Source: Pseudomonadota bacterium (GTDB taxonomy: Bacteria > Desulfobacterota > Desulfobulbia > Desulfobulbales > JAHJIY01). From it: a DNA stretch of 64,000 nt. The position numbers and the translations under genes are program-made. The notes under the pieces are model-generated. The model had not been told where the DNA came from, ran no database searches, and saw nothing but the letters and a program-made list of their open reading frames with translations. The stretch's first letter is position 1. Each line of letters opens with the position of its first letter. Below are positions 16,399 to 41,057 of this stretch, one piece after another. The stretch covers positions 1-64,000 of the forward strand of contig JAHJIY010000085.1 in the NCBI GenBank assembly GCA_018823175.1, written 5' to 3'.

Positions 16399-16404
16399 GA
16401 AGCG

Positions 16405-23579: not shown

Positions 23580-25049
23580 TTAATTAATAACTGATATCCC
23601 TACAGGTTTGGCCCCTAGTTCTATAGTGCTGTTCATCCGGTTGGAGGTAATATCTACTACGCTTAAGCCTTTTGAGTTTTCATCTCCGATATAAAGCCAT
23701 TGGTGATTTTCAGTTATAGCCATTTCCAGTGGTCGTCGGCCGATTTTAATCTCTTTTGAAGCAGTAAATTGCCCTGGAATCAGTAGTGAAGCAGTACCAT
23801 CCAGAAAATTTGTTATGTATATGCTGTTGGAGGTTGCAATAAGTCGCCGCGGAGAAAATCCCACATTAAACCTCTTGATAATTTTTCTGCCGGTTAACTC
23901 GTAAATGGCAACGGTATTAACTTCCGGTTCTGTAATGTACAACAGGTCATCCCAAACCATTAGGCCCAGGGGGGGGCTACTTACAGGAAAAGACTCTATA
24001 ATTTTAAGGTTGTTGGGGTCAACCAGGTATACCGATTGATCCATGGCGGAAGAAACAGCAAGAAGACCTTGTTCTTGCATGTAAAGCACATATTGCGGGT
24101 GCTGTCCTATTTTTAGTTGATTTGTAATGTTGCCGGTCTGCAGATCAAGATTAATCAGGAGATTTTTTCTGCCGTCCAGAATATAGGCCCGGCTGGTATC
24201 CTTATTTAGTGCCATATGGACGGGATCAATCAGTGTAGGTATCTTTATGATGTCCAGCAGGAGATTGGTTGAAAGGTCGATGACCTTAACGGCGGATTCA
24301 TCAGCCGCCAGGATATAGAGGCGGTGGGTCGCCAGGTTAGTTGCCAGGTAGGTGGGACTTCCTGATACTCCTAATGAACCATACACCATGTTTTTATCGG
24401 TCCGGACGATATAGATGGTGTCGATTTCCGGGCAGGCGATATACGCCAGATTGGTGATTATCGGCAGGGTCTGCGAGCTGGTTACCGCAACAACCATTTT
24501 GTCCATCCGGTTGTCTTTGATTGAAGCGTTCACATCCCAATCCAGGAAGAAGGAGTGACTATTCCCTTGCGCCATATTCAAAGGTGCAGGTAATACTATT
24601 TCAGTAAATGGTTTCGTTACAGTTATCGGAATTTTTTTGCCTTCTTCTATGAATGCGGCTTTGGTGGTTGTTATCCTGATTTGAATATAATCGCCGGTTG
24701 GCATTATTTTTCTACCGATGAAAATTTGTTCTTTTCCTAACTTTGCTGTGTCTATTTCGAGAGGACCGGAGGTGATAGTGAGCCAATTATCACCATTGAG
24801 TACTTCAATCGCTGAGATTTGGGTCCATATATGAGGCACATCAGGTTGTCGTAAATTCAGGAAAAGAGACAGTCGACCACCGGTATTGGGATCCATCCCA
24901 ACAATACAGGTCGCATCTAATGTTTTCTGGGAGGATTGGGGGATGGTCAGGCAGCCGACGGGTAGAAACAATATCAAGACAAGGAGTAAACGCTGAATAA
25001 CAGTATAAAACATGCAGTGGTAGGTTGTGGCGTTACTGTTATTATTCAC
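23580..25049 (-). CDS. YVTN-type beta-propeller lipoprotein
   Basis: A 489-residue predicted lipoprotein. GTG at 25049 has AAGGAG about 6 nt upstream. The hydrophobic segment ends in PVGC near residue 33. Residues about 45-200 form an all-beta domain (LEIDTAKLGKEQIFIG ... GDYIQIRITTTKA). The rest repeats propeller blades such as NLATHRLYILAADESAVKVID and VYLVDPNNLKIIESFPV. Such propellers act as scaffolds or binding surfaces. The OmcS-like gene is 82 bp upstream on the same strand, so this protein may help export, cap or anchor the filament. Confidence 0.75.
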   Translation of the reverse strand: MNNNSNATTYHCMFYTVIQRLLLVLILFLPVGCLTIPQSSQKTLDATCIVGMDPNTGGRLSLFLNLRQPDVPHIWTQISAIEVLNGDNWLTITSGPLEIDTAKLGKEQIFIGRKIMPTGDYIQIRITTTKAAFIEEGKKIPITVTKPFTEIVLPAPLNMAQGNSHSFFLDWDVNASIKDNRMDKMVVAVTSSQTLPIITNLAYIACPEIDTIYIVRTDKNMVYGSLGVSGSPTYLATNLATHRLYILAADESAVKVIDLSTNLLLDIIKIPTLIDPVHMALNKDTSRAYILDGRKNLLINLDLQTGNITNQLKIGQHPQYVLYMQEQGLLAVSSAMDQSVYLVDPNNLKIIESFPVSSPPLGLMVWDDLLYITEPEVNTVAIYELTGRKIIKRFNVGFSPRRLIATSNSIYITNFLDGTASLLIPGQFTASKEIKIGRRPLEMAITENHQWLYIGDENSKGLSVVDITSNRMNSTIELGAKPVGISVIN

Positions 25050-25131: not shown

Positions 25132-26184
25132 TTATTTTTTGGTGGTATGACACTCGCCGCAACCATCATAACCACCGGCGGGCCAATTTTTATAGTCCCA
25201 GCGAAGATTGGCATCGTATGGGCTGCCATGGGCCCGGTGGCAGGATAGGCACATGACGATTGCATCAGCAGGCCCGTCTAGTATTGTAGATTGAGTACCT
25301 CCTATTACGTCAAGATCACTTGCTACCGGAGAGACTACACTATAATTTTTACCCGCTGGTCCGTATTGGGAAATATCGGAGTTACCCATATCATAATCGC
25401 TTGGATGACGGACCCAGGGATTTGTAAATATACCCTCAGTGACACCTTTATTGTCCGCACCACTGTGAAAGTCACCATGGCAATTGGCGCAGAGATAATT
25501 GATGGAAGTTGGGTCTAAATCGGACTCATTAATCCGGTCTTTGGCGTTATACTGATTGTGGTTGAGGTTATCAACGGTCAGTTCCCAATCCACGTCTTCA
25601 ATGCCGGCAATCCCGTCAAGGAAACGGTAACTTTCGCTGAGGGAGGCACCGGTTGTCGCCGCCGGCGTATTACTGTGGTGGGTTTTGTACATTGACATCG
25701 TCGGGTTGATTACACTTCGATTGCCGTGGCAACCCCTGCTGCCGGCACATTGCAGAGGCGCGTAATTTGTTGATGTAGGGTTCCCCGGTGCTGGTCCTGA
25801 GGGAAAAAAGGCTACGCCGTCCACATTATGACCTTGTGCATTACTGCCTTCGGAAACCCAGCGGAAGTTCCCGCCGGCCAGAGTATTTCTGGTTGACGCT
25901 CCACTTTCGGTTCCTGTGGTGTCATAGTCGGCGGTGGGGTCGAATACGTATGGTGTACTTCCCTCCGAGTTTGTTCCCTGGTGGCATCCATAGCAGGTGT
26001 TGATCAATAAGGCCTCGTTGCCGGTGGTGTAGGCGGCGGAACCCATGGTCTTGCTGTCCTGGCTGTTGTGCATGGTATGGCAGTTGGCGCAACGATCCGA
26101 CATAGCCGCCGTTCTGGCCAGGCAGATACCAGGTGCTGTCAGGAAAAAAGCCACAATAATAAACCATGGTTTCTTAGCCATCAT
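25132..26184 (-). CDS. OmcS-like hexaheme cytochrome, candidate nanowire subunit (copy B)
   Basis: A 350-residue exported cytochrome. After a signal peptide (about 1-24) the heme order is CANCHTMHNS, CYGCH, CAGSRGCH (five residues between cysteines), CANCHGDFHSG, CLSCHRAHGS and CGECHTTKK at the very end. Geobacter OmcS, a filament-forming six-heme cytochrome, has the same order with near-identical flanks: CHTMHNS at heme 1, CANCH with a nearby His at heme 4, an RHP segment between hemes 4 and 5 (here WVRHPSDYD), CLSCHRAH at heme 5 and a C-terminal CXXCHAKD. Only the third motif differs (CSSCH in OmcS). The propeller gene lies 15 bp upstream, so they are co-transcribed. Filament formation is inferred, not shown. 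Confidence 0.85.
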   Translation of the reverse strand: MMAKKPWFIIVAFFLTAPGICLARTAAMSDRCANCHTMHNSQDSKTMGSAAYTTGNEALLINTCYGCHQGTNSEGSTPYVFDPTADYDTTGTESGASTRNTLAGGNFRWVSEGSNAQGHNVDGVAFFPSGPAPGNPTSTNYAPLQCAGSRGCHGNRSVINPTMSMYKTHHSNTPAATTGASLSESYRFLDGIAGIEDVDWELTVDNLNHNQYNAKDRINESDLDPTSINYLCANCHGDFHSGADNKGVTEGIFTNPWVRHPSDYDMGNSDISQYGPAGKNYSVVSPVASDLDVIGGTQSTILDGPADAIVMCLSCHRAHGSPYDANLRWDYKNWPAGGYDGCGECHTTKK

Positions 26185-26199
26185 AATCCTTACTCTCCT

Positions 26200-27096
26200 C
26201 TATCGGCTAAAAATCTCTACTCGACCGTTACCCGAATCAACAACGCAAAGTCTTCCCCAAGGGTCGAATAATAGATCCTCCGGATAATAAAGCTCCCCCC
26301 GGCCATGACCTTTGCTCAGGAAGTTATATTTGAAAGAGCCGGTTTGATCAAAAACTGCAATAGTTCCATTGTGTCGATCAAGAATATAAAGAAGTCCGGC
26401 CGGTCCGATCTCTAAAGCAAAAGGAAAAGCCAGGCTGCCTTTTAATTGAATTTTTTCAGATTGAGGGCCGTCTGTATTAAATTTATAAACCGCCTTTTCG
26501 GTCCGGGCCAAGGCCCAAATATTCCCGGATTTGACCGTGAAATCAATGAAGCCGCTGGTGCATTCAGGGCAGCCGTAATGTTTAATTCCTTTTAATTTGC
26601 GGTCAAAAAGAATTATATCTCCGGAAGATTTGTCCAGAAGATAGGTGTTTTCCCCATCAATAAAAAGTCGGTCGGGAAAGACTGAAACGCCGCGATATTG
26701 AAGGGAGTGGTTTTCTATTTTTTTCTCTTTGAGGTCTATTTCGGTTAAACTGTTTCTTCCTTTTTCGATGACCCACATTAAACCGTCTTTCTCGCGAACA
26801 ATATCAGTAGGCGTCTTAAGTTTGTTGCTGGCGCTGAATGCATTAAGATAGATCCCTTCTCGCTTAAACGAAAGAAGTCGGTTGTTGCCGGCATCAGCGA
26901 CATAATAGCGTTCCAATTCCTGGTCGACAAAAATATTCCCCGGCAGCAGCATGGGCTTAGTTTTGTCATCGTTGGGTTGATCGCCTCGCAAGCTAAATTG
27001 CCATTGCCATGGATCTTTGGCCAAGGCAGAGGTAAAACACCCTGAGACCAGGATGAAAAGAGACAATATAATAATCGTCAAATGTGTTTTTCTCAT
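26200..27096 (-). CDS. NHL-repeat beta-propeller lipoprotein
   Basis: A 298-residue protein with a lipoprotein signal (LVSGC at about 16-20) and six-bladed NHL-type repeats: VDQELERYYVADAGNNRLL, PTDIVREKDGLMWVIEKGRNSL, and a terminal YYPEDLLFDPWGRLCVVDSGNG. NHL propellers bind proteins or sugars. It is 15 bp upstream of the OmcS-like gene, an arrangement also known for omcS in Geobacter, which supports a role in making or placing the filament. Confidence 0.82.
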   Translation of the reverse strand: MRKTHLTIIILSLFILVSGCFTSALAKDPWQWQFSLRGDQPNDDKTKPMLLPGNIFVDQELERYYVADAGNNRLLSFKREGIYLNAFSASNKLKTPTDIVREKDGLMWVIEKGRNSLTEIDLKEKKIENHSLQYRGVSVFPDRLFIDGENTYLLDKSSGDIILFDRKLKGIKHYGCPECTSGFIDFTVKSGNIWALARTEKAVYKFNTDGPQSEKIQLKGSLAFPFALEIGPAGLLYILDRHNGTIAVFDQTGSFKYNFLSKGHGRGELYYPEDLLFDPWGRLCVVDSGNGRVEIFSR

Positions 27097-27267: not shown

Positions 27268-28440
27268 TTAATAACTTTTGTGGCACTGGATACACAAATC
27301 TTTGCCGCCACTCAATTTAAGATTGAATTTGAAATTTGTGCCATGCGGATAGTGGCAACTGACACAAGTCACTTGTTGCCCGGTCCGAGGGTCAAGGACT
27401 GTTCCGCCAACCGGATGAGTAAACTGACCCTGGGTCTTATGACAGGAATCGCACACTTCAATGCCGTTGCCTTTCAGCATCGCCATATTATTTGAGCCGT
27501 GTAAGGCATGGCAATCACTACAGGAGCCGGTATCAGGATGGCTATGCAGGGTGTTATCATATCCGGCAAAGGTGTTGGCGTGGCAGCTGCGGCAAATCTG
27601 ATTCTGGCGGTTTTTCAACATGCTATTACTGTCCGCGGCGTGGGGACTATGGCATTTCACGCAACTATTAACCGCTTTATCAGTCAAATGATTATGGGCC
27701 GATAAAAGCTGATCCATGATTTCTTCATGGCATTCCAGACATTTATCGGTTTTTACCGGTCCTTTTTCATGACAATCACTGCAGCCTTCTTTGTATGGGG
27801 CATGCAAAACGTTACGGATCAGGTTCTTTCGTTCGCTACCATGTGGGTTATGGCAGGAAAGACATACGCGCAAACGACCGGGAAACCCTTGGTGTTTTTG
27901 TTGCAAGATATTTTCCTGATGACATTTGCTGCAAAGTTTGTCCGGCTCATCGTTAAGTAATTGAGCCCTTTCAGATTGATGGGCGCGATGACATGCCCCA
28001 CAATCACCCTTTTCATAGGGTTGGTGGGTGTAATCATATTTTTTAAGCAGGGTCTTATGACACTTAAAACAGTTTTCACCGGGGGCGCTTTCATTCAATA
28101 ATCCTTTATTTGACGAGGCGTGTGGGGCATGGCAAGACAGGCATTCCCCTTTTTTTACCGGTTTGTGAACGATGCCCTTGCTGAAAGATTCAATTTTATC
28201 CTGATGGCATTGGTAACAGAGTTCGGAGACTTCGCTTGATAAGAGATTTTTATAACGGGCAACATGCGGGTTGTGACATGAAGAACATTTGTTTTCAGCT
28301 ACCGGGCTATGCACGACCTTGCCACTGAAATTTGCTTTTTTATGGCATTTAAAACAGGTAGTGTTGGCCTCCGCCGAAACAATACTGGTAAAAAAGCAGG
28401 TCAGTAATATTAACAGGGACAATTGAATGTTTTTGTTCAT
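27268..28440 (-). CDS. 16-heme c-type cytochrome
   Basis: A 390-residue exported protein with a signal peptide (about 1-24, ending VSAEA) and 16 CXXCH motifs, one per 23 residues. They occur in pairs of the doubled-CXXCH type, with the second often followed by PHG, PHA or AHQ that supplies distal His ligands. There is no lipobox, so it is probably periplasmic, like MtrA-type subunits inside a porin. Its ATG overlaps the TAA of the 26-heme gene by one base (TAATG), which points to coupled and stoichiometric synthesis. Confidence 0.92.
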   Translation of the reverse strand: MNKNIQLSLLILLTCFFTSIVSAEANTTCFKCHKKANFSGKVVHSPVAENKCSSCHNPHVARYKNLLSSEVSELCYQCHQDKIESFSKGIVHKPVKKGECLSCHAPHASSNKGLLNESAPGENCFKCHKTLLKKYDYTHQPYEKGDCGACHRAHQSERAQLLNDEPDKLCSKCHQENILQQKHQGFPGRLRVCLSCHNPHGSERKNLIRNVLHAPYKEGCSDCHEKGPVKTDKCLECHEEIMDQLLSAHNHLTDKAVNSCVKCHSPHAADSNSMLKNRQNQICRSCHANTFAGYDNTLHSHPDTGSCSDCHALHGSNNMAMLKGNGIEVCDSCHKTQGQFTHPVGGTVLDPRTGQQVTCVSCHYPHGTNFKFNLKLSGGKDLCIQCHKSY

Positions 28441-30371
28441 TATTTTGTCCTCCCTGGGTGGCAGGGATTACATTTCCCTTCCATAAACGGTGTATGGCCG
28501 ACTGGATAAAGCAGGGATTTGTCGAGACCTCCATGGGGATCGTGGCACTTGAGACAAGAATCCGGTCCAGGTTTGATTTCTTTATGTGACTGCAGAAAAC
28601 TTTCAGTATTTATCTGATGGCAATCCTGGCAGAGTGACCGGCGGTCTTTTTTCAGGATAGCCACGTTATTCGAGCCATGCGGGGAATGACATTTACTGCA
28701 ATTAATGGTTGCCGGCTGGTGGGCCACTCCATCCTGCCAGTCTTTGGCGATGGCAGAGTGACAGGTAAGACACAGCATGGGCTGTTTCTTGTTTAGATTG
28801 CTGTCGTTGCGGGATCCATGTCCGCGGTGGCAAGTAATGCAGTTAAGAGAGGATACTGGTTTGTGTTCAACTTTGTAATTGGCCAACTCTGTGGCTTTTT
28901 CCGCATGACAGTCAAAACACAATTCGCCGGTTTTCTTCCTGAAAAGAAATTGGTAATCGGCGCTGTGTGCAGAGTGGCAGGTTCCGCATTCGCCGGAACG
29001 GAATGGTTCATGTGTTCCTTCGCCAGATTGGGCTGCGGCCAGTTCCTTATGACAAGTCAGGCATAAGGCGCCGCCTTTCTGGGTTTTATTCAGTAGTTTT
29101 TCAGCGGTCGATTGATGCGGTTGATGGCAACCGGTGCAGTTGCCGGCGCTAAATGGCTTATGAAGGCTGTAGCGGCCTTGTTCTTTGGCTGTTTTTTCAT
29201 GACAATCCAGACAGAGATTTTTCTGACTTTTAATCAGTAGGGTTTGTTCTCCGGACTCATGCGGGTTGTGACAAGTCAGGCATTCTCCTTTAAGGGCCGG
29301 TTGGTGAGATATCAAACCTGAACCATAATCTTTTTTCTGATGACAGGTAAAACATAAAGTTGTGGCTGGAGAACGGAGGAGTGATTTTTCAAGGGACGCG
29401 TGACCTTGATGGCACTTCAGGCAATTTCCATTTTTGGCAGGGGCATGAAGGCTTTTCATCTGTTTGTTCGTATTTTGGCCCTGACTGTGGCAGGCAAGAC
29501 AGACTTTTGCTGGTGAATTGTTTAACATCCCGCTGTAATCACTGGCATGTGGCCCATGGCAGGAGGTGCATTTTTTTTCGATATATGGTTGATGGAGGTG
29601 CCCGGCAGCGGTTCCATCGTGGCACTGCAGACAAAGAGTATCGGGCTCATCTTTTATTTTAATATCTTTATTGGCGTCGATCTTATGACATTCATTACAT
29701 TCACCGGCTTTCACCGGGCTATGGAGAACATCTTTCAATAATCCTTTATTATCAGAGCTGTGTGGTGTGTGGCATGACATACAGTTTGATTTTACCGGAT
29801 ATTGAAAATGACTATTTTTGAACGAATCAGTGTTCAGATCATGGCATCCCTGGCATAATTCCGTGGTCTTTTTGAGTAACAGGGATTCGTTGTTGGTTGC
29901 GTGGGGATTATGACAGGTTTTACATCCTTGCTGTAATGGGGCGTGAATGTTTGTTTTTACAAAATCACTTCGGTCATGACAGGCAAAACATGCTTCCTGA
30001 CCCTCAGCTTTTAAAAGTTTGGAGTATGGGCTGTTATGGACCTCGTGGCAGGCGGTGCATTTCCCATTAGTAAATGGCTGATGTACGGATTTCATTGAGG
30101 ATGAAGCGGCCAGGTCTTGATGACAGCGGTAACAAAGGGCGGGGGGCTCCTGTTTAAGGTAGAGACCGCCGATAAAGCCGTGCGGAAGATGGCAATCCTT
30201 ACAGTCTTTTTTGCGGACAGGTTCATGAACAATACCGGTTAAATACTTGTCGGCCATTTCAGCATGACAATCCAGACATTCCTTTCGTGTCTTTTGGGAA
30301 GGGTTGGTAGTTCCGCACGCTGTAAGGCCCAGGACCATGCAACATAAAATCAATAGAAGTTTATTTTTCAT
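28440..30371 (-). CDS. 26-heme c-type cytochrome lipoprotein
   Basis: A 643-residue predicted lipoprotein (lipobox LTAC at about 16-19) with 26 CXXCH motifs in tandem doubled units, each typically CXXCH...CHxPH. Almost no sequence lies between heme units, so it should form an extended heme wire. Lipidation suggests attachment to the outer membrane, inside or outside. The start overlaps the isomerase gene by 11 bp and the end overlaps the 16-heme gene by 1 bp, so isomerase, 26-heme and 16-heme proteins come from one message. Confidence 0.93.
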   Translation of the reverse strand: MKNKLLLILCCMVLGLTACGTTNPSQKTRKECLDCHAEMADKYLTGIVHEPVRKKDCKDCHLPHGFIGGLYLKQEPPALCYRCHQDLAASSSMKSVHQPFTNGKCTACHEVHNSPYSKLLKAEGQEACFACHDRSDFVKTNIHAPLQQGCKTCHNPHATNNESLLLKKTTELCQGCHDLNTDSFKNSHFQYPVKSNCMSCHTPHSSDNKGLLKDVLHSPVKAGECNECHKIDANKDIKIKDEPDTLCLQCHDGTAAGHLHQPYIEKKCTSCHGPHASDYSGMLNNSPAKVCLACHSQGQNTNKQMKSLHAPAKNGNCLKCHQGHASLEKSLLRSPATTLCFTCHQKKDYGSGLISHQPALKGECLTCHNPHESGEQTLLIKSQKNLCLDCHEKTAKEQGRYSLHKPFSAGNCTGCHQPHQSTAEKLLNKTQKGGALCLTCHKELAAAQSGEGTHEPFRSGECGTCHSAHSADYQFLFRKKTGELCFDCHAEKATELANYKVEHKPVSSLNCITCHRGHGSRNDSNLNKKQPMLCLTCHSAIAKDWQDGVAHQPATINCSKCHSPHGSNNVAILKKDRRSLCQDCHQINTESFLQSHKEIKPGPDSCLKCHDPHGGLDKSLLYPVGHTPFMEGKCNPCHPGRTK

Positions 30372-32034
30372 TTACTTTAACCCCGAATTCCTCTCTGATT
30401 TTCTGCCAAATTTCCTGGTTGATTGAAATATTGGCTATTGTTTTAAGTTTATCAATATATTCCTTTTTAATTATATCAGATTTTCCTTTTTTAATTTTTT
30501 TAGAAATTTCAGTTGAAACTTTTTCAAGAGGAAGGGATCTGCCCTGGATCTGGTTAATCATTTTGACCATGGCATATCCGGCATTATGAACAAAAGGAGG
30601 ACTGACTTCGCCTTTGACAAGTTTTTTGAACTCCAGTTGCAGGTTCTCCGGCAGCTTTTCAAGGGGTTCTTGCTTAATCTCGAGGTCTTCACTGTAATAT
30701 TTTTTGGCCAAATCAAAAAAGTCTCCCCCCTGGATAATTGAGGCCCATACTTTGCTGACCAGGTTTTCCTCACCGGTCAACATGGCGTAATTGATCACAG
30801 TAGGCATGGAATATTGAGCCTTGTTTGCTTGGTAATACTGGTCAATTTCCTCATTTGAAATTTGAACCTGAGAAAGCAAACTACTTTCGAGTTCTGCCTT
30901 AAGGCGGTTGCCCTGGTAGAACTCATAAATCCACTTGAGAGGCGGATTTTTTTCGTAATGTCTGTTCATTGATTCCAAGGAAATAAGGGTATCGTACACT
31001 GCGTTGAATAATATTGTTTTTTTGAGTTCTTCCAAATTGATTGTTTTGTCTATGCCGTACCTGTTTTGATAAGTCCAGTCGTTACTGATGACTCTTATCA
31101 TGTCATCAACTGTAATCCCCGTTTCATTTTCAGTCATGGTGACAACTTTTTTGTCTAAAAACTCAGAGGAATAGTTACGGGCCTTTGGGTCAATTTTGGC
31201 CAAGAGGTCTTCATCGATCTGCACATTATATTTCTTCTCAAGACGTTCAATTAGTTTCTGGGATAAATCGTTGGTAGCTTTCTTTACCAGTTCGTGTTGG
31301 CACAACTTTTGTTTTTCTGCGAAATCATCATCCGGGGGTATTAATTGTTCATGCAATCTGAGAAAAATGAATTTGCCGTCGTCCTCGAAAGGTTCCGCCA
31401 CATACCCTGGTTTAAGTTTGCGCAAAACAGAAAGCCAATTTTTTTTGTTTTTCTTGGAGCTGAGTGACTCTGGCAGAACCTGTATCTGTTCAAAGGATAT
31501 TGGCCCGCCATTTTCCGGTAAAATACCTTTCTGGTCGGTGAACGGGAGGTGTCCTGCCGGCGAACCGTTATACTGTTGCATTTCGTTAAAGGCCTTCATG
31601 GCGTCAGTCTGGTTATTATAGGTTAGGGCCTGAATACGCCAGATAGGGGTATAGTTTTCCTGGTAAAAATCTTTGATATCCTGTGCGCTGATTTTTATTT
31701 TAGAGTCGATCTCTTCATTTTTTAACAACATCATGTTTCGGACTGAAAGGAAGATCTTTAATTTTCTTTGGTAGGATGGAAGATTGTATAATTCTCTTTC
31801 CTTAGCCTGGTTGACCATCAGGTTCCACTCGATGAATGAGTCTGGGGTTTCGGGGAAAGGGGTCTCTTTTTCCTTCCAGTTTTGCCACCAATGGCGGAAA
31901 TCATCGGCCGTAAGGTCCTGGCCGTTGATCGAGGCTAAAGGTTTTTCCTGCCCAAACCATGCGCTGGCATTATGGCCGGACAATAATATTATTAACAGGC
32001 AAAAAGAGATCGGTTTAATTATTTTCCAACGCAT
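30361..32034 (-). CDS. PpiC-type periplasmic peptidyl-prolyl isomerase
   Basis: A 557-residue SurA/PpiD-like protein with a signal peptide (about 1-25, ending NASA). A SurA-type N-terminal helical region starts LASINGQDLTADDFRHWW. Parvulin-like segments are seen at about 120-210 (TPIWRIQALTYNNQTDAMKAF) and 400-480 (VINYAMLTGEENLVSKVWASI ... KLPENLQLEFKKLVKGEVSPPF). It probably chaperones the neighbouring outer-membrane or exported cytochromes, as it is made from the same message and overlaps genes on both sides (16 bp upstream, 11 bp downstream). Confidence 0.8.
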   Translation of the reverse strand: MRWKIIKPISFCLLIILLSGHNASAWFGQEKPLASINGQDLTADDFRHWWQNWKEKETPFPETPDSFIEWNLMVNQAKERELYNLPSYQRKLKIFLSVRNMMLLKNEEIDSKIKISAQDIKDFYQENYTPIWRIQALTYNNQTDAMKAFNEMQQYNGSPAGHLPFTDQKGILPENGGPISFEQIQVLPESLSSKKNKKNWLSVLRKLKPGYVAEPFEDDGKFIFLRLHEQLIPPDDDFAEKQKLCQHELVKKATNDLSQKLIERLEKKYNVQIDEDLLAKIDPKARNYSSEFLDKKVVTMTENETGITVDDMIRVISNDWTYQNRYGIDKTINLEELKKTILFNAVYDTLISLESMNRHYEKNPPLKWIYEFYQGNRLKAELESSLLSQVQISNEEIDQYYQANKAQYSMPTVINYAMLTGEENLVSKVWASIIQGGDFFDLAKKYYSEDLEIKQEPLEKLPENLQLEFKKLVKGEVSPPFVHNAGYAMVKMINQIQGRSLPLEKVSTEISKKIKKGKSDIIKKEYIDKLKTIANISINQEIWQKIREEFGVKVNEK

Positions 32035-32648
32035 ATTTTTAATCCTTTATTAATCCAAGCTGTAATGATTTCCTGTGAAACAACTTTTGACAGTTCTGCT
32101 ATGGTATTTATTTTGCCGAAATGAAGAAATTTCTGGTATTGCTTTGCTTCCCTTCGATGGTAGGTACTCCATAAGGTCCGACCGGAATCGGTTTCGATTA
32201 TCCGGAGAATGACGGCCAGGGAAACAGGTTGTCGACCTCGTTGCTCATCGTTACCACTCATTTCAATAATAGTCCCGCTGACCACAATTTTTGAGCCTAA
32301 CCGTCCTCCTAACGATCTTACTTGTTCGAGAGAAGTTTGTTGTCCGATAAATACTCTCATTTGTCTTAATATTTTGCGAACATCACCTTCCTGAGAGATT
32401 AAATAATTACCGGTGGACAAAAGCTCTGAGGTGAAGATCCGGTAAAACAGGGTGTCTGCGGTTTTGCTTTCTGTTTGATTGATGAACGGCAATACGGTTA
32501 TCTGGCAGATCTGTCCTTCATCCGGTAAAGCGGCAAGTTGCAAAACGGTTGGTGACTCCTTGAAAGAGCAACCGGTGGCAATCATATGGAGTAAGGTAAT
32601 TAGTATTAATTGCCGCCAATAATTATTAATTTTAAATTTTTTCATCAA
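32019..32648 (-). CDS. CsgG/LpoB-like lipoprotein
   Basis: A 209-residue predicted lipoprotein (lipobox ATGC at about 24-27). The mature part has the alpha/beta pattern of the CsgG/LpoB/GNA1162 group: ICQITVLPFINQTESKTADTLFYRIFTSELLSTGNYLISQE, then LGSKIVVSGTIIEM and a strand with a DSGRTLWS turn. CsgG itself forms the curli export pore, while LpoB is a regulator, so function cannot be read from fold alone. It starts the gene run isomerase, 26-heme, 16-heme. A weak promoter (TTAACA, 19 nt, TATAAT) lies in the 94-bp gap upstream. Confidence 0.65.
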   Translation of the reverse strand: MMKKFKINNYWRQLILITLLHMIATGCSFKESPTVLQLAALPDEGQICQITVLPFINQTESKTADTLFYRIFTSELLSTGNYLISQEGDVRKILRQMRVFIGQQTSLEQVRSLGGRLGSKIVVSGTIIEMSGNDEQRGRQPVSLAVILRIIETDSGRTLWSTYHRREAKQYQKFLHFGKINTIAELSKVVSQEIITAWINKGLKICVGK

Positions 32649-32742: not shown

Positions 32743-34359
32743 TTAAAATTCATCTAGCCAAGCCGGACCGGAACTTGTCTTTTCACCTTCTTTTACTTCA
32801 GGCGCAACTAATGACTGGATATCTTTAATTACCTGCCTTGATTGGTTGCCTAGGACATCACGCATCAAAATGATGCATTCAACTTTTCTGGTTTCACCAG
32901 CCAGTGGATCGATAATATCAGTCTGGATTGAATAGTCCTCATTTTCCGCTACTTTGACAATGTTTGGCCCACTGTTTTCCGCCACTTTAACAATATTTTG
33001 GCTATTATCTTTGGCGACCTTGATTACGTTATTGGGAAGCTGGATATCCATTCTAAAAGGTAAATTATCACCTTCCGCTACTTTTATTATTTCTCCGTTT
33101 TCGCCGCGGACCTCCATGCGCCAGAATGCGATGGGCACCTGTCCCTCGTGGTTTAAGTCAACAATCATGTCCCTCCCAAGATTTTTTGCTTCCAGCACCA
33201 TAGCTGGCGGGGTGCGGGCAATTGCGACCTGTTGCGATGTCACCGACAAATTCTCTGCGCGATCCCAGACCTGGAGCATAATTTCGTATATTCCTTCTTC
33301 TGATAGCCAGCCGCTTTTTTTGCGTCCGTTCCAGACAAACTGCCGGGGCAGATTTCCGTAACCGCTTCGGCTCATCTGTTCTTCGCCTGCCTCATCTTCA
33401 ATGGTTATTTTCCAACGGGCCACTGGCTCACGTTTGATCATGTGGGGAAGAATAATAACCTGGTCCCGAAAGGCCACGGTTCCTTCTAGACGGACTCCTT
33501 TAAGTTCCAGCACCAGTTTAGGTGGTGCACTGTCAACATTGTAGGCCCCCAGAAAAGTCACTTTTTTATTACCTGATGGCCAATCGACAACCATAGTTAC
33601 CGGGTAGCGGCCATCTCGGTCGGAGACGACCCAGTTGGATTCGTAAGAGTATCCGTCTGGTGATTGACGTGCCAGGTGGACCCGGCCTCCCACCTTGAAA
33701 AAGAGACGAGGCATATCCGTTTCCGACCATTTGGTGCGCAGGCTGACTGAGCATGAAACCTGGTCGCCACGACGGACATGGGAGGGACGCAGGTCTACGT
33801 ATTCGATTTCCAGTGGTGGTTGTTGGCTGACGATAAACTCAAGTTCATCAGGCCAATCTTCCAAAACTCTTTGGGCCAGAAGGGGTACTAGTCCTTCTGG
33901 CGGGCCACTATCGCCAATTCCAAGCAGGCTAATTATGTCGTCCTGGCATAGGCCACCTGAAGCGGACCATAAAGTCCTGCTGTCGTCTGATCTTGCCAGG
34001 TAAAGGGTAAGTCCCAAGGAAGGGTCTTTAAGGTTCTGGCCCAGGGTTATAGTGCCGAAAAGCACTAAGTCAGCTCCGAGCTCATCTTTAGCCTTAATAA
34101 TGTGCTTGGTGTCGAGAAAGCCAAGCCAGCGCATCCTGTTTCTGACCATAAAGGCCTCGACGTTTTCATTACTGATCACATCAAGTCCTTTTTCCGATAG
34201 TTCCCAGGCAAGATAATCGGTTACTTCCTTATTGATCCCGTTTGAACCCTGGCTCAGGTCTTCAATGGGGATAATGGCCACGGTCATGGCTTGACTGATC
34301 GAAACATTAACCAAAAAATAGAGGATGAGACTGCAATAAAATAAATATTTAGTAAACAT
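32743..34359 (-). CDS. CsgG-like domain protein with Ig-like domains and 11-residue repeats
   Basis: The frame is open from GTG 34380. ATG at 34359 with GAGGT 7 nt upstream is preferred and gives a clean signal peptide (MFTKYLFYCSLILYFL ... SQA). Residues about 25-170 have the CsgG/TolB-N-like fold (TVAIIPIEDLSQGSNGINKE, ADLVLFGTITLGQ, SRTLWSASGG). The remainder is beta-rich with Ig-like pieces (FVWNGRKKSGWLSEEGIYEIMLQVWDRA, FlgD-like turn). At 32938-33090 lies a short array of four copies of an 11-residue unit with core [IV]KVA[EK]. There is no lipobox, so the protein is probably periplasmic or surface-exposed. Confidence 0.6.
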   Translation of the reverse strand: MFTKYLFYCSLILYFLVNVSISQAMTVAIIPIEDLSQGSNGINKEVTDYLAWELSEKGLDVISNENVEAFMVRNRMRWLGFLDTKHIIKAKDELGADLVLFGTITLGQNLKDPSLGLTLYLARSDDSRTLWSASGGLCQDDIISLLGIGDSGPPEGLVPLLAQRVLEDWPDELEFIVSQQPPLEIEYVDLRPSHVRRGDQVSCSVSLRTKWSETDMPRLFFKVGGRVHLARQSPDGYSYESNWVVSDRDGRYPVTMVVDWPSGNKKVTFLGAYNVDSAPPKLVLELKGVRLEGTVAFRDQVIILPHMIKREPVARWKITIEDEAGEEQMSRSGYGNLPRQFVWNGRKKSGWLSEEGIYEIMLQVWDRAENLSVTSQQVAIARTPPAMVLEAKNLGRDMIVDLNHEGQVPIAFWRMEVRGENGEIIKVAEGDNLPFRMDIQLPNNVIKVAKDNSQNIVKVAENSGPNIVKVAENEDYSIQTDIIDPLAGETRKVECIILMRDVLGNQSRQVIKDIQSLVAPEVKEGEKTSSGPAWLDEF

Positions 34360-34512
34360 AAGCCTTACCTCTTTCTCCACGAAACCCGGAAAATAAAAGT
34401 GAATAGTGACAAGTTGAAAAGTTATGGCGTTATCTGATTTGACTGTTTTCTGTGTTGCTCGAAGTCTGTCGTTTACCTGGAGTCTATAACTTCACAGTTG
34501 ATACCTCGTGTT

Positions 34513-34600: not shown

Positions 34601-35182
34601 TTATTTTTTGGCTGGAATAGTTGACAGCATCTTTTTCATTAACTTAAGGGTAATATGAAATTTGTCGGTCGGCGCCAGGCCGAAAAGGCGACCTGCCATT
34701 GAATCGGCGCTCCACCTGGCGCTGGATTGCCAGATAACAACCGATGATTTGGAATCTACCAGTCTAAGGGTTACCGCCAGGTCCGGAAAGGCGATAGTCC
34801 CTTTGCGTACTTCACCCGATTCATCGATTGAACCCAATAAAAAAGCCTCTACGTTCAGTCTCTGGGCCAGACGCTTGAGGTTAAGCAGGTCAATGGGCTT
34901 GCCTGGGTCAATTACTTCTTCCATCATGACGCTATCTACGATACCCATATCAACGACATCGGATATCCCCATGGCCAGGACCTGGGTAATAGCGACGTCC
35001 CTGACCCGCTGGGCGGCATATTTGTCATCGGTATGGTTTTCAAAAGGCAGAACCACCAGCCGGTTTATCAGGTCCAGATCCACGTCTTCCCGTAAAAATG
35101 ATTGAGAAGAGAATTTCCCGCTGCAACCTCCGATTAATAAAGTAAACATTGCTATGAGCAGCACAATAGAGCACTTTCGCAT
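34601..35182 (-). CDS. CsgG/LpoB-like lipoprotein
   Basis: ATG at 35180-35182 is preferred over the track-long frame because it gives a lipoprotein signal (MRKCSIVLLIAMFTLLIGGC) and has an AAAGGGG box upstream. The mature protein of about 173 residues shows the CsgG/LpoB pattern: LVVLPFENHTDDKYAAQRV, VEAFLLGSIDESGEVRKG, VTLRLVDSKSSVVIWQSS. It is the third protein of this fold within 3.5 kb. It lies just downstream of the beta-barrel gene, suggesting an outer-membrane assembly role. Confidence 0.65.
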   Translation of the reverse strand: MRKCSIVLLIAMFTLLIGGCSGKFSSQSFLREDVDLDLINRLVVLPFENHTDDKYAAQRVRDVAITQVLAMGISDVVDMGIVDSVMMEEVIDPGKPIDLLNLKRLAQRLNVEAFLLGSIDESGEVRKGTIAFPDLAVTLRLVDSKSSVVIWQSSARWSADSMAGRLFGLAPTDKFHITLKLMKKMLSTIPAKK

Positions 35183-35251
35183 GCCTGGTACCCCTTTATC
35201 CTTTTGATTTACGGTTAATCGACTTCTCTGGTCATACAAACGAAGCCGCGG

Positions 35252-37357
35252 TTAATAGGTCGAAAATCTTGCTGTTAAAACACTTTTCAAAATTATATCT
35301 TCTTGCAAATCGTTCTTGATGTAGTTGCCGATGAATTGCATGAAAATATTGGAACTAACGGTCCAACGCAAGTTAACATCCCCCGAATGGGTGTTGACGG
35401 TTGCATGCGTTATTGAATAGCTCATACTCCCTTGAATTTTCGGGGTTATGGCCAGTACCAAACTGAGGTTGCTGGTTTCCCGTTTACTTTCGCCCCAAGT
35501 TTTTTGTCCAGAGAAGGCCAGGGAAAGAAGGTCGGAAACCCGCCAGCCCATGTTGATTGATGTTTTATAGGTGTCGGTTGTAGTTGTGCTTTGGTTATTA
35601 GTGTATTCGCCGGAAAAGGAGGTGGTTATTTGTGGATTAAGGCGGGCCGAAAAATAAAGTATGGTTGTCAATTGTTTGTTCTCTTTGCTGTCGTCTTCCG
35701 GTTTAGTTGTGGTATGAGTTGCCCGGAGCTGGGAAGAAAGGTCAGGATAAAGCTGGGCGGTGATGTTTGCTGCGAAACTATAATTCTGGGAGGTTTTCTC
35801 GTTATTCGTGTAATTGTCATTGACTGAGCCGTTTAGACCAAGGTCAAGAGTAGGTAGCAACTCTGAATTTAATCCCAAGCCATAGGATTTGATATTGGTT
35901 TCGGTATAGGATTTGATATTGGTTTCGGTATGATCTGTGTTTTTACGCCAGGAGTCGTTTACGTTAATTTGGGTTTTGAATTTAGTGGTTGGCCGCCAGG
36001 CAATGGATCCGCTTTGGTTCCGGGTCTCTACACTTGTCTCTGTTGGTTGAGATTCGGTCTGGCTCATCGTCAGATTGTAGTTTAGGCTAACTGTTTCTGT
36101 CAGTTGCAAGCCAAGGGAGGCATTGGTCTGGTTTTGGAGATTCTCGGAGGAAGTTGGAACAATAGTCCCGATGGTGCCGGTTATCTGATCAAAGGCCTCA
36201 ATTTCGGTAAAGTTGATTGTTCCAGCCCCGGGGTAGTCCAGCAAAACAAGTTTGAGATAGATTTGTTGCTGCTTCTGGACTGGAATCTCAAAACGATAGG
36301 TATTGTTTATCGGATCGGTGTTATAGATTACGGTATTGGCATCAAGAGTCTCTTGCGCAAAGTTGATGCCGTCAGTGCTTGACCACAACTGCCAATTAAA
36401 ATTATTTGGCATGGCGACGCTGATGTCCACATCCGTATAAAGGTAAATCATATCGACTTCGGCCAGATTTGTTTTCAGATCGATATTATAGTCGATCCCC
36501 GCTGGCGGGAGGGTGATTGCCGGGGTCAGCAGATCCTGGTTGGTCATGGCAACGGTAACATCGGTAAAAGTAGAACCATCACTGCTCTCAGGGTTGTCGT
36601 CAATGCTCCATCTTATTTGGGAAATCGGCTTGTTCAGCAAGGCAAAGCCACTACTGGTAATCAGAGAATCCTTGTCACTTTGACTGTTTTGCTGTTGATA
36701 AGAAAATGATGTATTGAGGCGATTGTTCCAGAATAAATGGGCGGCCGAGATTCGGGCTGAATAATTTGTGGATATCTCATCATCGTTGCTGATCATTGTA
36801 TTATCTATTTGTCGCCAGTTGCCGCTTAAATATATCTTGGCTAAAATCAGGTTCCAGTTAAGGGTGCCGCCGGCATTAGTCTGTTCTAATTCCTGGAACC
36901 GGCCGCTGGAATTTTGGCCGAAGGAGGCAGTAAGGTTAGGGGCTAATTCATTCTTCCAGGCGCTGGTCAAATAGCTGTCCCAGGAAGTGGATTTGCTATA
37001 TCCTGAGATACTGTTATCAATTTCCGTTATTGATCCGCTAAGATCAAGGTCAAACAGGTAGTTTTGAAGATTCATGGATAAGTTTGGTGATAAATTTTTG
37101 GTGGTTGCGCCGTTTTCGATCCAGGTGATGCTATAACGTATATTTTCCTGGACATTCATTAAGTCAGTGACCGGCTGTTCAAACGATGCGCTATATGACT
37201 GGCGGTATGATTGGATGAAATTATCATTGTCATCCTCATCAATATTCCAGTTACCGTTAAAGTTGAGATTGACCGCCGGTGCCGGGTTCGGAATAAGTAG
37301 GACAAAGATCATGCCCAGCGCCAGAAGGTAATATCTTTTAATGATTTGTGTTTTCAT
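35252..37357 (-). CDS. outer-membrane beta-barrel protein, candidate conduit porin
   Basis: ATG at 37357 is preferred over GTG 37396 because it gives a normal signal peptide (MKTQIIKRYYLLALGMIFVLL ... APA) and the best promoter would start RNA near 37388. The mature protein of about 675 residues alternates polar and aromatic residues in strand pairs with Asn/Thr/Ser-rich turns and ends in an aromatic residue (ARFSTY), as outer-membrane barrels do. Residues about 245-400 interrupt the pattern with a discoidin-like beta sandwich (FNWQLWSSTDGINFAQE, IYLKLVLLDYPGAGTINFTEIEAF). An 8-residue duplication (TETNIKSY twice) comes from a 24-bp perfect repeat at 35882-35929. It could hold a cytochrome in the manner of MtrB, but this is inference from context. 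Confidence 0.7.
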   Translation of the reverse strand: MKTQIIKRYYLLALGMIFVLLIPNPAPAVNLNFNGNWNIDEDDNDNFIQSYRQSYSASFEQPVTDLMNVQENIRYSITWIENGATTKNLSPNLSMNLQNYLFDLDLSGSITEIDNSISGYSKSTSWDSYLTSAWKNELAPNLTASFGQNSSGRFQELEQTNAGGTLNWNLILAKIYLSGNWRQIDNTMISNDDEISTNYSARISAAHLFWNNRLNTSFSYQQQNSQSDKDSLITSSGFALLNKPISQIRWSIDDNPESSDGSTFTDVTVAMTNQDLLTPAITLPPAGIDYNIDLKTNLAEVDMIYLYTDVDISVAMPNNFNWQLWSSTDGINFAQETLDANTVIYNTDPINNTYRFEIPVQKQQQIYLKLVLLDYPGAGTINFTEIEAFDQITGTIGTIVPTSSENLQNQTNASLGLQLTETVSLNYNLTMSQTESQPTETSVETRNQSGSIAWRPTTKFKTQINVNDSWRKNTDHTETNIKSYTETNIKSYGLGLNSELLPTLDLGLNGSVNDNYTNNEKTSQNYSFAANITAQLYPDLSSQLRATHTTTKPEDDSKENKQLTTILYFSARLNPQITTSFSGEYTNNQSTTTTDTYKTSINMGWRVSDLLSLAFSGQKTWGESKRETSNLSLVLAITPKIQGSMSYSITHATVNTHSGDVNLRWTVSSNIFMQFIGNYIKNDLQEDIILKSVLTARFSTY
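35882..35929. repeat. 24-bp in-frame tandem duplication
   Basis: Two identical 24-bp copies inside the barrel gene encode TETNIKSY twice. The unit is a multiple of three, so copy-number change would not break the frame. Confidence 0.9.
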
Positions 37358-37396
37358 CAGCTGGATAATATACTTCCCGGTTGTCCGCCAATCCAC

Positions 37397-37826: not shown

Positions 37827-39563
37827 TCAGCGACTGTGCTTGATCTGCGGGTTGTTCCGGTCATAGGTCTTGGGAGCGTGGCAGCCGACCACACACGTCC
37901 CGCCTACCTTACTCTTGGTAAAGCTGATCGGGTACGACCAGGCCCCGAACGGTACCTCATAACGAACATGCTTGCCCTGGTTGCTGGCATGGGCATCATG
38001 ACATGAGGTGCAGGTCCGGCCTTTTTTCATGTTAACGTGAAAGTAGTGCAGGTTATAGTTGCCGTCTCTGAAGTTGGTCAGGGTCGTGGTCAGTTTGGTT
38101 TTGGCGATGTCCTTGTTGTGACAGCCAAAACACAAGTCATAGTTTTCCGGTTCATAGGGACTGTAAAATTCCATCGGGAAATAGCGGGCCAGCAGTTTGG
38201 AAAACTGTGAACCGTGCACGTTATGACAGGCGGCGCAGTCACCGGTCTGAACCGGACCGTGCCGATTCTGGCTGTCGGCAATAATATCGCCGAGGTCGGT
38301 ATGGCAGGAGAGGCAGAGCTTCTCCATGGAATCCTTGAGTAGCGACCCGTAATTGGAGGAATGGGGCCGGTGACAGGCGACACATTTACCTTCGTCTACC
38401 GGCGGATGTTTAACTTTGGCGGTGTTGATCGCCGTATAGATCTCGGGAGTCGCCTCTTCATGGCAGGAGGCGCAAAGTTTCCCTCCCTCTTCGTGCAGTT
38501 GGTAAGGGGCGTCGGAACTGTGCGGGTCATGGCACTTGTTGCAATCTTCCTGGACCGGGGCGTGGATATTCTCCATGGTGAATTCAGCCTTGCGGTCTTC
38601 ATGGCATTCAAAACAAAGTTGGCCGTCCTTGGTTGGCGCGATCAGTAGACTGGCATTGGCCGAAGAGTGGGGCTGGTGACAGGCGATGCACATGCCGCTG
38701 CCCACCGGGCCATGCTGATGTTTTTTGGTAAAAATCCCGTCTTCATGGCAGTTGAAACACAAGGCGCTGATCGCCTCACCTTCCGCTTTTAACTGGAAGC
38801 GCATATTTGATTGATGGGGATCATGACAGTCGGTGCAACCTTCTTCGACCGGGGCGTGGATAACCTCTTGGTTAAATTCTTCTTTTTTGGCTTGGTGACA
38901 GACCAGACAAAGATCGCCGCCGGTGCGCTGCAGGGCCTTTGCTTCAAAGGTGCCGTGCGGGCTGTGGCAAGAGATGCAGACGCCAGCCCCGACCGGACCG
39001 TGGACATGTTTGGCCTTGCCTTTATCGGTATGACATTCCCCGGTGGTGCAGTCGGCCCGGGCCGGGATTATTTTTTTAAAATCGTATTCCCCCTTCTTTA
39101 ATCGATGGCAATCCTGGCAATTAAGGGTTGAGGGTTTCTGGTGAACATAAAATCTTTTAAAATCCTTGGGCGGCGCATTTTTCTTCTGGTCCGGGGTGTA
39201 AAAGACCCGCACCGAGGTCTGCAGCTTGTCGCTGCCTATTTTTATCGTGTTCAGCCCATTTTTTAAGCTGACCGGCGCGCCGAAAACTCCGCCTTCATTA
39301 ACTGTGGCCCGGTCATTTTTGAGCTTGGTGTCCACTCCCTTGAGCTCAATGTTATCTATTTTGATCCCCTGGACGGTGCCGGCCAGAAACAGGTTTTTTT
39401 CGGTTACCCACACGGCGTCTGGCGGGGAGACTATTCGGATGGCCGGGTCGGCGGCCAGAGCCGGCCGGCTAAAGATTAAAGCGCCGTTAACGACGGATAT
39501 AAACAGAAGCAATAGTAGCCGGATATCATGACATCTCATCCTTTTCTTCCCCATCATGGTCAT
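37827..39563 (-). CDS. c-type cytochrome with 14 CXXCH, one CX4CH and one CX3CH
   Basis: A 578-residue exported cytochrome. A signal peptide (about 1-37, ending PALA) is followed by an Ig-like non-heme domain (about 39-125; IRIVSPPDAVWVTEKNLFLAG). Fourteen canonical motifs follow in doubled units. The second site from the N-terminus is CTTGECH (four residues between cysteines) and the last is CVVGCH (three residues). CX4CH is known from cytochrome c3 families, while CX3CH is uncommon. The decaheme protein at 45882-47093 has a similar N-terminal domain. The first ATG lies 3 nt after AAGGAG, and the third codon ATG is an equally good start. Confidence 0.9.
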   Translation of the reverse strand: MTMMGKKRMRCHDIRLLLLLFISVVNGALIFSRPALAADPAIRIVSPPDAVWVTEKNLFLAGTVQGIKIDNIELKGVDTKLKNDRATVNEGGVFGAPVSLKNGLNTIKIGSDKLQTSVRVFYTPDQKKNAPPKDFKRFYVHQKPSTLNCQDCHRLKKGEYDFKKIIPARADCTTGECHTDKGKAKHVHGPVGAGVCISCHSPHGTFEAKALQRTGGDLCLVCHQAKKEEFNQEVIHAPVEEGCTDCHDPHQSNMRFQLKAEGEAISALCFNCHEDGIFTKKHQHGPVGSGMCIACHQPHSSANASLLIAPTKDGQLCFECHEDRKAEFTMENIHAPVQEDCNKCHDPHSSDAPYQLHEEGGKLCASCHEEATPEIYTAINTAKVKHPPVDEGKCVACHRPHSSNYGSLLKDSMEKLCLSCHTDLGDIIADSQNRHGPVQTGDCAACHNVHGSQFSKLLARYFPMEFYSPYEPENYDLCFGCHNKDIAKTKLTTTLTNFRDGNYNLHYFHVNMKKGRTCTSCHDAHASNQGKHVRYEVPFGAWSYPISFTKSKVGGTCVVGCHAPKTYDRNNPQIKHSR

Positions 39564-40022: not shown

Positions 40023-41057
40023 TTATTTTGAGGTATGACAGATAAAGCAACCAGCCTCAGCAGAACCGACTGTATCATCACCTGGAAATGCAGCAAGAGT
40101 GGTTCCGGCGTTCATGTTAGCAAGATTCCAACGCAGGAGATCCGGGTAGGCTGAACCATGGGACATATGGCAGCTGAGACAGATTACCTGACCGGTCGTG
40201 GTGTTGGTGTTGGTCATTTCGCCCAGAGGAATGGCTGGGTTATAAACGCCACCATTGGCGTCATTATATGCTTCACCAGTCAGGTTGGCATTTACTGGGA
40301 TATCGGTTGGATGCCGCTTCCAGATCTGAGCAGATCCAGCACCAGCGACACTCAATTGGTTTGACGAGCCATGGAAATTGCCGTGACATACGCCGCAAAC
40401 GGCTGCGCCCATACCGTTAGTTATATCAGCTGAATAACGACTAGAGCCGACAACTTCGGCTGCATCGTATCCGTAGTTAATGCCTTCAGTGCCGTCGACA
40501 AATACTGCGGAACCTTGTACTTCAAGGAAGCGGTAGCTGCCACCGTTTGTTGTGCCAACGGTATTTAATACAGTATTTGCGTTGGAATGATGAGCGCCAA
40601 CTGCATTATGACAACCGAGAGCGCCACTACAGGACAGAGTATTTGCAGCAACAGCTCCACCTGGTGAAACGGTCAAAGTGCCGTCATTGGACTGTTTACT
40701 AACGGCAATTAGATCGGCCACATTGTGAGTTTGATTTGAAGTATTTGAAAAATAGCCACCGGCCAATGGATTTGCAATGTCGTTAACCTGTGGTGCTGCT
40801 GGGCCGTTTGCGCCACTTGAGTAACCAGTGGCGGTGTTTGGGTCCGCGTTATGCGCATGGCAACCAACGCAGTTATTGGCCAATAACAGCTGGTTGTTAC
40901 CGGTGGTATAAGCAACCCCACCGACTGATGCTCCGTCCTGGCTGTTGTGCATGGTGTGACAGCCGCTGCATGGTCCACCCAAGGCAAAAACGGTGGCTGG
41001 CAATGCCAGGGCCGCAGTTGCAAGGGCAGCGATGATTGTTCTTTTTACTGTAATCAT
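40023..41057 (-). CDS. OmcS-like hexaheme cytochrome, candidate nanowire subunit (copy A)
   Basis: A 344-residue exported cytochrome with a signal peptide cleaved near VFA-LGG. The heme order is CSGCHTMHNS, CVGCH, CSGALGCH (five residues between cysteines), CGVCHGNFHGS, CLSCHMSHGS and CFICHTSK at the C-terminus. Spacing and flanks match copy B at 25132-26184 and Geobacter OmcS, including an RHP segment between hemes 4 and 5 (WKRHPTDIP). It has its own promoter, an AGGAGG ribosome site, two 3' hairpins and no co-transcribed gene, as expected for a highly made structural protein. It is the stronger candidate for the major filament subunit. Confidence 0.87.
   Translation of the reverse strand: MITVKRTIIAALATAALALPATVFALGGPCSGCHTMHNSQDGASVGGVAYTTGNNQLLLANNCVGCHAHNADPNTATGYSSGANGPAAPQVNDIANPLAGGYFSNTSNQTHNVADLIAVSKQSNDGTLTVSPGGAVAANTLSCSGALGCHNAVGAHHSNANTVLNTVGTTNGGSYRFLEVQGSAVFVDGTEGINYGYDAAEVVGSSRYSADITNGMGAAVCGVCHGNFHGSSNQLSVAGAGSAQIWKRHPTDIPVNANLTGEAYNDANGGVYNPAIPLGEMTNTNTTTGQVICLSCHMSHGSAYPDLLRWNLANMNAGTTLAAFPGDDTVGSAEAGCFICHTSK

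Follow-up and report, generated by a model that had tools for sequence, protein, structure and literature searches.

A CX5CH third heme motif and a downstream His-His mark a large OmcS-like hexaheme cytochrome sub-family in sulfur-cycling Desulfobacterota

Introduction

Two OmcS-like genes in a Desulfobulbales genome carry five residues, not two, between the cysteines of their third heme motif. The question raised by this locus is whether that spacing is an accident of the sequence or the mark of a distinct form of the cytochrome with a heme 3 site of its own. We analysed the window, by which we mean the whole 64,000-nucleotide stretch of contig JAHJIY010000085.1, around one of these genes, the target. 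The OmcS-like clade as such is already published (Murali 2023, PMC10553843; PMC12545173); the combination of CX5CH with a downstream His-His appears to be undescribed, as far as the open texts of the papers show.

The target gene and its heme motifs

The target lies on the minus strand at 25132..26184 and was delimited as an ORF with an ATG start. Homology to OmcS and the predicted fold identify its 350-residue product as an OmcS-like hexaheme cytochrome, with a signal peptide predicted from the sequence at about residues 1-24. Sequence and alignment place heme 1 at CANCH (C32-H36, 26077..26091), heme 2 at CYGCH (C64-H68, 25981..25995), heme 4 at CANCH (C232-H236, 25477..25491), heme 5 at CLSCH (C312-H316, 25237..25251) and heme 6 at CGECH, at the C-terminus (C342-H346, 25147..25161), all on the minus strand. 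The third motif, supported in addition by a predicted beta-hairpin, is CAGSRGCH (C146-H153, 25726..25749, minus strand), and the spacing along the protein is 2-2-5-2-2-2. A second OmcS-like hexaheme protein, copy A (40023..41057, minus strand, assigned by sequence and synteny), has CSGALGCH as motif 3. The sequence-only reading had reported CX5CH at this place in both proteins with different residues between the cysteines (AGSRG versus SGALG), and this was confirmed. Two further OmcS-like paralogues of the window's genome, L002 (G000:C57) and L003 (G000:C93), have no CX5CH at motif 3.

Relationship to OmcS

OmcS is the sole strong PDB relative of the target. It alone was matched in a phmmer search of the PDB with the target (1.8e-8); a profile of 89 relatives matched it at 9.9e-25, with the next matches near 0.002. 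Profile-profile comparison by hhalign against 25 OmcS-type sequences gave a probability of 100% and an E of 8.9e-39. An OmcS query had no match at 1e-20 in the window's genome, and the relationship is therefore distant. The target was modelled with AlphaFold2, without hemes, on the alignment of the 89 relatives (mean pLDDT 80.9, pTM 0.82); a model based on 27 sequences reached a pLDDT of 48 and was not used. The top Foldseek match of the retained model was 6EF8 (probability 0.99, E 1.4e-3), at a modest TM of 0.42/0.37. With VIA-align, residues 32-349 of the model were superposed on residues 9-407 of 6EF8 with a Z of 14.5 and an rmsd of 4.0 over 249 residues, while OcwA gave a Z of 2.5, far below OmcS. 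The profile comparison and this predicted fold bear out the earlier description of the target as OmcS-like.

The target matches OmcS of Geobacter sulfurreducens (PDB 6EF8, 6NEF) in the order of its six c-type heme motifs and in their conserved flanks; the segments CHTMHNS, GHN, RHP and CLSCHRAH are common to the two proteins, and heme 6 is C-terminal in both. The target precursor is about 80 residues shorter (350 versus 432). At heme 3, the CX2CH motif of OmcS comes with a distal-type His of its own (CSSCHDPHG) and no His-His follows downstream, whereas the target has CX5CH and His-His. As its heme 3 segment reads CAGSRGCHGN plus HH, without the CxxCHxxH of OmcS sensu stricto, the target belongs to a sister sub-family and not to OmcS proper. 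No solved structure was found for any member of the CX5CH sub-family, and OmcS is the only solved structure for these branches. An expanded motif also occurs at heme 1 of the nanowire cytochrome OmcZ, with a 14-residue loop between the cysteines (PMC9473688), but the two folds are unrelated, and OmcZ heme 1 lies at a subunit interface whereas heme 3 of the target is central.

Conservation and phylogeny of the CX5CH motif

The genome of the window, 77 relatives, 80 named loci and 395 genomes drawn evenly from the phylum supplied the OmcS-family ORFs; in the 395 genomes both the family profile and OmcS served as queries. CX5CH was found as motif 3 in 138 of the 208 OmcS-family proteins with at least six motifs, a collection biased to the target's relatives. 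Elsewhere in these 208 proteins it was seen only once, at motif 2 of L063:15454-16653 (CLGVTACH), the sole protein to have it there as well as at motif 3 (spacing 2-5-5-2-2-2). The motif 3 consensus is C-A-G-x-x-G-C-H-G, in which the first C (138), A (125), G (135), inner G (138), second C (138), H (138) and final G (137) are counted over the 138 copies. The earlier statement that the spacing is not an error was thus upheld: both cysteines are present in 138/138 copies, from many genomes and with invariant flanks. These occurrences rule out an error of sequencing or assembly and a Cys that arose by chance, readings to which we give a negligible probability.

Since the collection is biased, the question of conservation was put to a tree (162 rows, 70% non-redundant) from which the heme 3 region had been removed. 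A single branch (support 99) has all 41 OmcS-type CxxCHxxH rows on the same side. The distribution of CX5CH requires four changes on this tree, against 48.5 in shuffles. With the heme 3 columns left out, CX5CH is found in 78/78 rows of the target's clade, whose own support is 78, and the suggestion that a whole clade might carry the motif at heme 3 therefore holds for this clade. With support 95, copy A forms a group with L034_2055 (motif 3 CTSCH) and L035_17215 (motif 3 CTDCH); L060_15572 has CESCH. The claim that CX5CH is conserved between divergent paralogues stands for the target and copy A, but not for the nearest syntenic relatives of copy A, which have CX2CH. From the sequences, CX5CH was apparently lost at least twice outside the target's clade, those closest syntenic relatives included; being lost in two lineages, it would not be essential to the fold. 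The syntenic counterparts of copy A at L034:2055-3053, L035:17215-18204 and L060:15572-16645 have CX2CH at heme 3 and have kept the His-His.

The CX5CH sub-family is a large group in sulfur-cycling Desulfobacterota, and it is to this branch, not to Geobacter OmcS, that many of the putative nanowire cytochromes found in sulfate reducers, in sulfur disproportionators and in iron reducers of the Desulfurivibrio type belong. The CX5CH/His-His signature allows the branches to be told apart by eye, and it accounts for the five hemes, not six, that are obtained when CxxCH is counted.

An apparently rebuilt heme 3 site

Of the 12 His ligands in an OmcS subunit, 11 are supplied by the subunit itself; the remaining one, at heme 5, is contributed by its neighbour (PMC6584659). 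We assigned the distal-type His of OmcS (mature H16, H110, H247, H257 and H335) by conservation, not from coordinates. Five of the six OmcS distal-type His are matched in the same columns of the target, by H39, H119, H240, H260 and H319, all of which are invariant in the 89-row alignment. H39 belongs to CHTMH and follows the heme 1 motif (26068-26070, minus strand); its column, conserved in 158/162 rows, is that of OmcS H16 of CHTMH, which we take to be the inter-subunit ligand. H240 follows the heme 4 motif (25465-25467), H260 is the invariant His of RHP in the column of OmcS mature H257 (25405..25407), and H319 follows the heme 5 motif (25228-25230), each placed by alignment on the minus strand.

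The sixth distal-type His of OmcS, that of CHDPH after motif 3, is absent from the target. The alignment shows instead an invariant His-His (H169-H170, 25675..25680, minus strand), usually located 15 residues past the CX5CH His, for which we propose the role of stand-in. It is present in 102/102 CX5CH rows and in 19/19 other non-OmcS rows, but in 0/41 OmcS-type rows. On this sequence evidence, the whole binding site of heme 3 appears to have been rebuilt, beyond the mere insertion of a spacer, with the invariant His-His replacing the distal His. One of H169 and H170 would be the axial ligand, and the assignment of each His to a heme is likewise putative.

The target model has a predicted beta-hairpin (strands 144-147 and 151-154, local pLDDT about 89-94), with C146 on one strand and C152 on the other. 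Heme 3 is probably bound covalently by both cysteines, since sister proteins without CX5CH have CX2CH at this site with the first Cys kept. Single-Cys c-type hemes exist, and no paper on a CX5CH heme spacing was found in the literature searched; heme 3 could thus be attached by a single thioether (xxGCH), with C146 put to another use. We hold this to be improbable, because C146 shows the same invariance as the remaining heme cysteines, the site turns into a canonical CX2CH in lineages without CX5CH, and the two cysteines are placed on both strands of the predicted hairpin.

The sequence-only reading had called the extra residues an insertion, and here the alignments disagree: hhalign opens a 3-residue gap, whereas in the HMMER and MAFFT alignments CAGSRGCH and CSSCHDPH are paired with no gap between them. 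The gapless alignment would fit a register shift, in which the same eight positions are retained, the Cys-His has moved onto the place of the OmcS distal His and the His-His has taken over the old role. Both segments are eight residues long, with L-x-C in front and G behind; the old distal His falls in the same column as the new proximal His, and the His-His is present exactly where CHxxH is missing. The gap preferred by hhalign speaks for an insertion, as do the later CX2CH forms, which resemble a true deletion (CTSCHTGGGHH), and no intermediate was seen. A register shift is therefore a possibility that we take seriously but on balance doubt. The function of the target is the same under a register shift and under the best explanation given below.

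Several relatives carry a seventh motif. In the seven-heme OmcS-like paralogues L003, L152, L176, L177, L237:16835-17986, L240:1715-2830, L243:15313-16413 and L253, motif 3 is CX2, CX3 or CX4CH and an extra CxxCH stands immediately before the His-His. The other seven-heme form (L045:2551-3738, L057:2585-3886, L088:13937-15097, L126:94-1452 and L133:8148-9308) has CX5CH at motif 3 and CX4CH or CX7CH after the His-His. The heme 3 loop looks like a favoured place for the addition of a heme.

The NHL neighbour and the porin-cytochrome cassette

The target is part of a minus-strand cassette of roughly 17 kb, with copy A at its upstream end, the target at its downstream end and a YncE-like propeller gene after it; the order is essentially the same in about 20 genomes, and in most cassettes two OmcS-like genes occupy the opposite ends. 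Directly upstream of the target, 5' of its start codon and in the same direction, lies the gene of an NHL propeller-type exported protein (26200..27096, Pfam NHL 2.4e-11, a conserved neighbour), and the 15-nt gap noted earlier was found as described. Synteny within the cassette then identifies a 16-heme cytochrome (27268..28440) and a 26-heme cytochrome with a lipobox-like N-terminus, GLTACG (28440..30371). Further upstream come a PpiC-type peptidyl-prolyl isomerase (30361..32034, Pfam Rotamase_2 1.3e-14), a small LpoB-like lipoprotein (32019..32648, a weak match below the cut-off), a syntenic conserved exported protein with no significant family match (32743..34380) and a GNA1162-like lipoprotein (34601..35239, again a weak match below the cut-off). 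The gene at 35252..37396 has a conserved position and no informative Pfam match, and the character of its sequence suggests a putative outer-membrane beta-barrel. A further syntenic 16-heme cytochrome (37827..39563) occurs in only some cassettes. The conserved downstream gene codes for a DUF4382 plus YncE-like beta-propeller protein (23580..25049, Pfam and synteny); all these genes are on the minus strand. An eight-motif cytochrome is encoded divergently from the cassette at 22098-23426 (plus strand), and in several genomes its relatives lie between the YncE-like gene and the gene that corresponds to the target.

The NHL gene had been noted as a difference between the target and copy A, and as a lipoprotein gene. 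It does not make the target distinct in kind, for the NHL gene is widespread: it lies at most 120 nt upstream of 68 CX5CH hexaheme genes, and an NHL-like ORF lies at most 300 nt upstream of nine OmcS-type genes. Given the latter, the pairing probably predates CX5CH. As for the lipoprotein label, the window's copy does have LVSGC inside its signal peptide, but a lipobox is found in only 2/68 of the orthologues upstream of CX5CH hexahemes, and the conserved mature start of the orthologues is x-P-W-x-W; the orthologues thus lend the label no support. We also rejected the idea that the OmcS-like genes of the NHL end and those of the barrel end are each a single lineage of orthologues; the position label has to change 12 times on the tree, so that the two are clustered but not cleanly separated.

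Murali 2023 describes OmcS-like genes beside a porin-cytochrome conduit (oetABI) in Desulfobulbia and Thermodesulfobacteria (PMC10553843). The window's cassette fits the oetABI cassette with OmcS-like/Apc2a cytochromes by gene order and content alone (PMC10553843). According to the same text, the survey searched for CxxCH, a pattern that undercounts target-type proteins by one heme (PMC10553843).

Proposed function and counterparts in Desulfurivibrio alkaliphilus

We consider it probable that the target is an exported hexaheme cytochrome with the OmcS fold whose heme 3 is held through CX5CH and His-His; its most likely role is that of an extracellular electron carrier, polymerising or docking like OmcS and fed by the adjacent conduit. 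Electrons would traverse the outer membrane by way of the porin-cytochrome conduit encoded beside the target, reach the OmcS-like protein and travel down the linear stack of its hemes to external acceptors such as Fe(III) oxide, or to a partner. The extracellular location, the formation of filaments and the direction of electron flow are what we infer for this protein. Heme 3 would be attached through CX5CH on the Gly-bracketed predicted beta-hairpin, the local distal His (C-x-x-C-H-x-x-H in OmcS) being exchanged for the invariant His-His about 15 residues downstream, and hemes 1, 2, 4, 5 and 6 with five of the six distal-type His would be kept. Because heme 3 is in the middle of the stack in OmcS, away from the subunit junction, the change more plausibly alters potential or packing than assembly; potential and packing may differ at the one heme to which the signature points. 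That a major, widespread branch of the OmcS family has rebuilt its central heme site in this way (a CX5CH hairpin, the axial ligand moved to the His-His, possibly a retuned potential or packing, and an unchanged polymer interface) is, in our judgement, evenly balanced.

The target could also be OmcS-like without polymerising: it might act as a surface or periplasmic carrier, or be the tip, the adaptor or the priming subunit of a filament whose body is made by copy A or another paralogue. The presence of OmcS-like genes at both ends of most cassettes would suit such a division of labour, and the Geobacter filament was found to contain OmcS alone, although three close hexaheme homologues are encoded there (PMC12954529). 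Yet H39, aligned with OmcS H16, is conserved in 158/162 rows, the ligand set is kept in both copies, with neither singled out by its sequence, and the oligomer of the related DA_402 discussed next is predicted to form a filament (PMC12545173). We therefore find a non-polymerising target rather unlikely, and the earlier proposal that the two paralogues build different filaments, or are body and tip, is speculation.

DA_402 of Desulfurivibrio alkaliphilus is reported in the main text of PMC12545173 (Nature 2025) to be induced more than 100-fold under iron-oxide respiration, and was modelled there as an OmcS-like filament. Both published RT-qPCR primers for it match D. alkaliphilus AHT2 DNA within L059:14411-15706(-), which identifies DA_402 with this ORF; its motif 3 is CAGAKGCH. 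It belongs to the same sub-family as the target but has seven motifs. DA_756 and DA_765 were also induced, according to the same main text (PMC12545173). The two OmcS-like cassette-end genes of D. alkaliphilus, L058:3435-4511 and 15477-16655, are nine tags apart; as DA_756 and DA_765 are likewise separated by nine locus tags, they are very likely the positional counterparts of the target and copy A. Motifs were counted as CX2-5CH in that study, so CX5CH hemes are implicitly included, and its main text draws no attention to CX5CH, to the conservation of this motif across the clade or to the His-His (PMC12545173).

A typical bacterial CX5CH OmcS-like gene was also found on a contig of a Heimdallarchaeota MAG (L087), probably through a binning error.

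Candidate heme lyases

The spacing raises the question of which heme lyase attaches CX5CH. The heme lyases of the window's genome comprise one System II pair (ResB plus CcsA) at C88. A CcsA-like gene at C6 was rejected as a dedicated lyase, since it stands beside hemA-like and siroheme-synthase-like genes and is probably of the HemX type. An orphan CcsA-like protein (L256, G000:C69:9828-10460), encoded apart from the C88 pair, is a candidate dedicated heme lyase.
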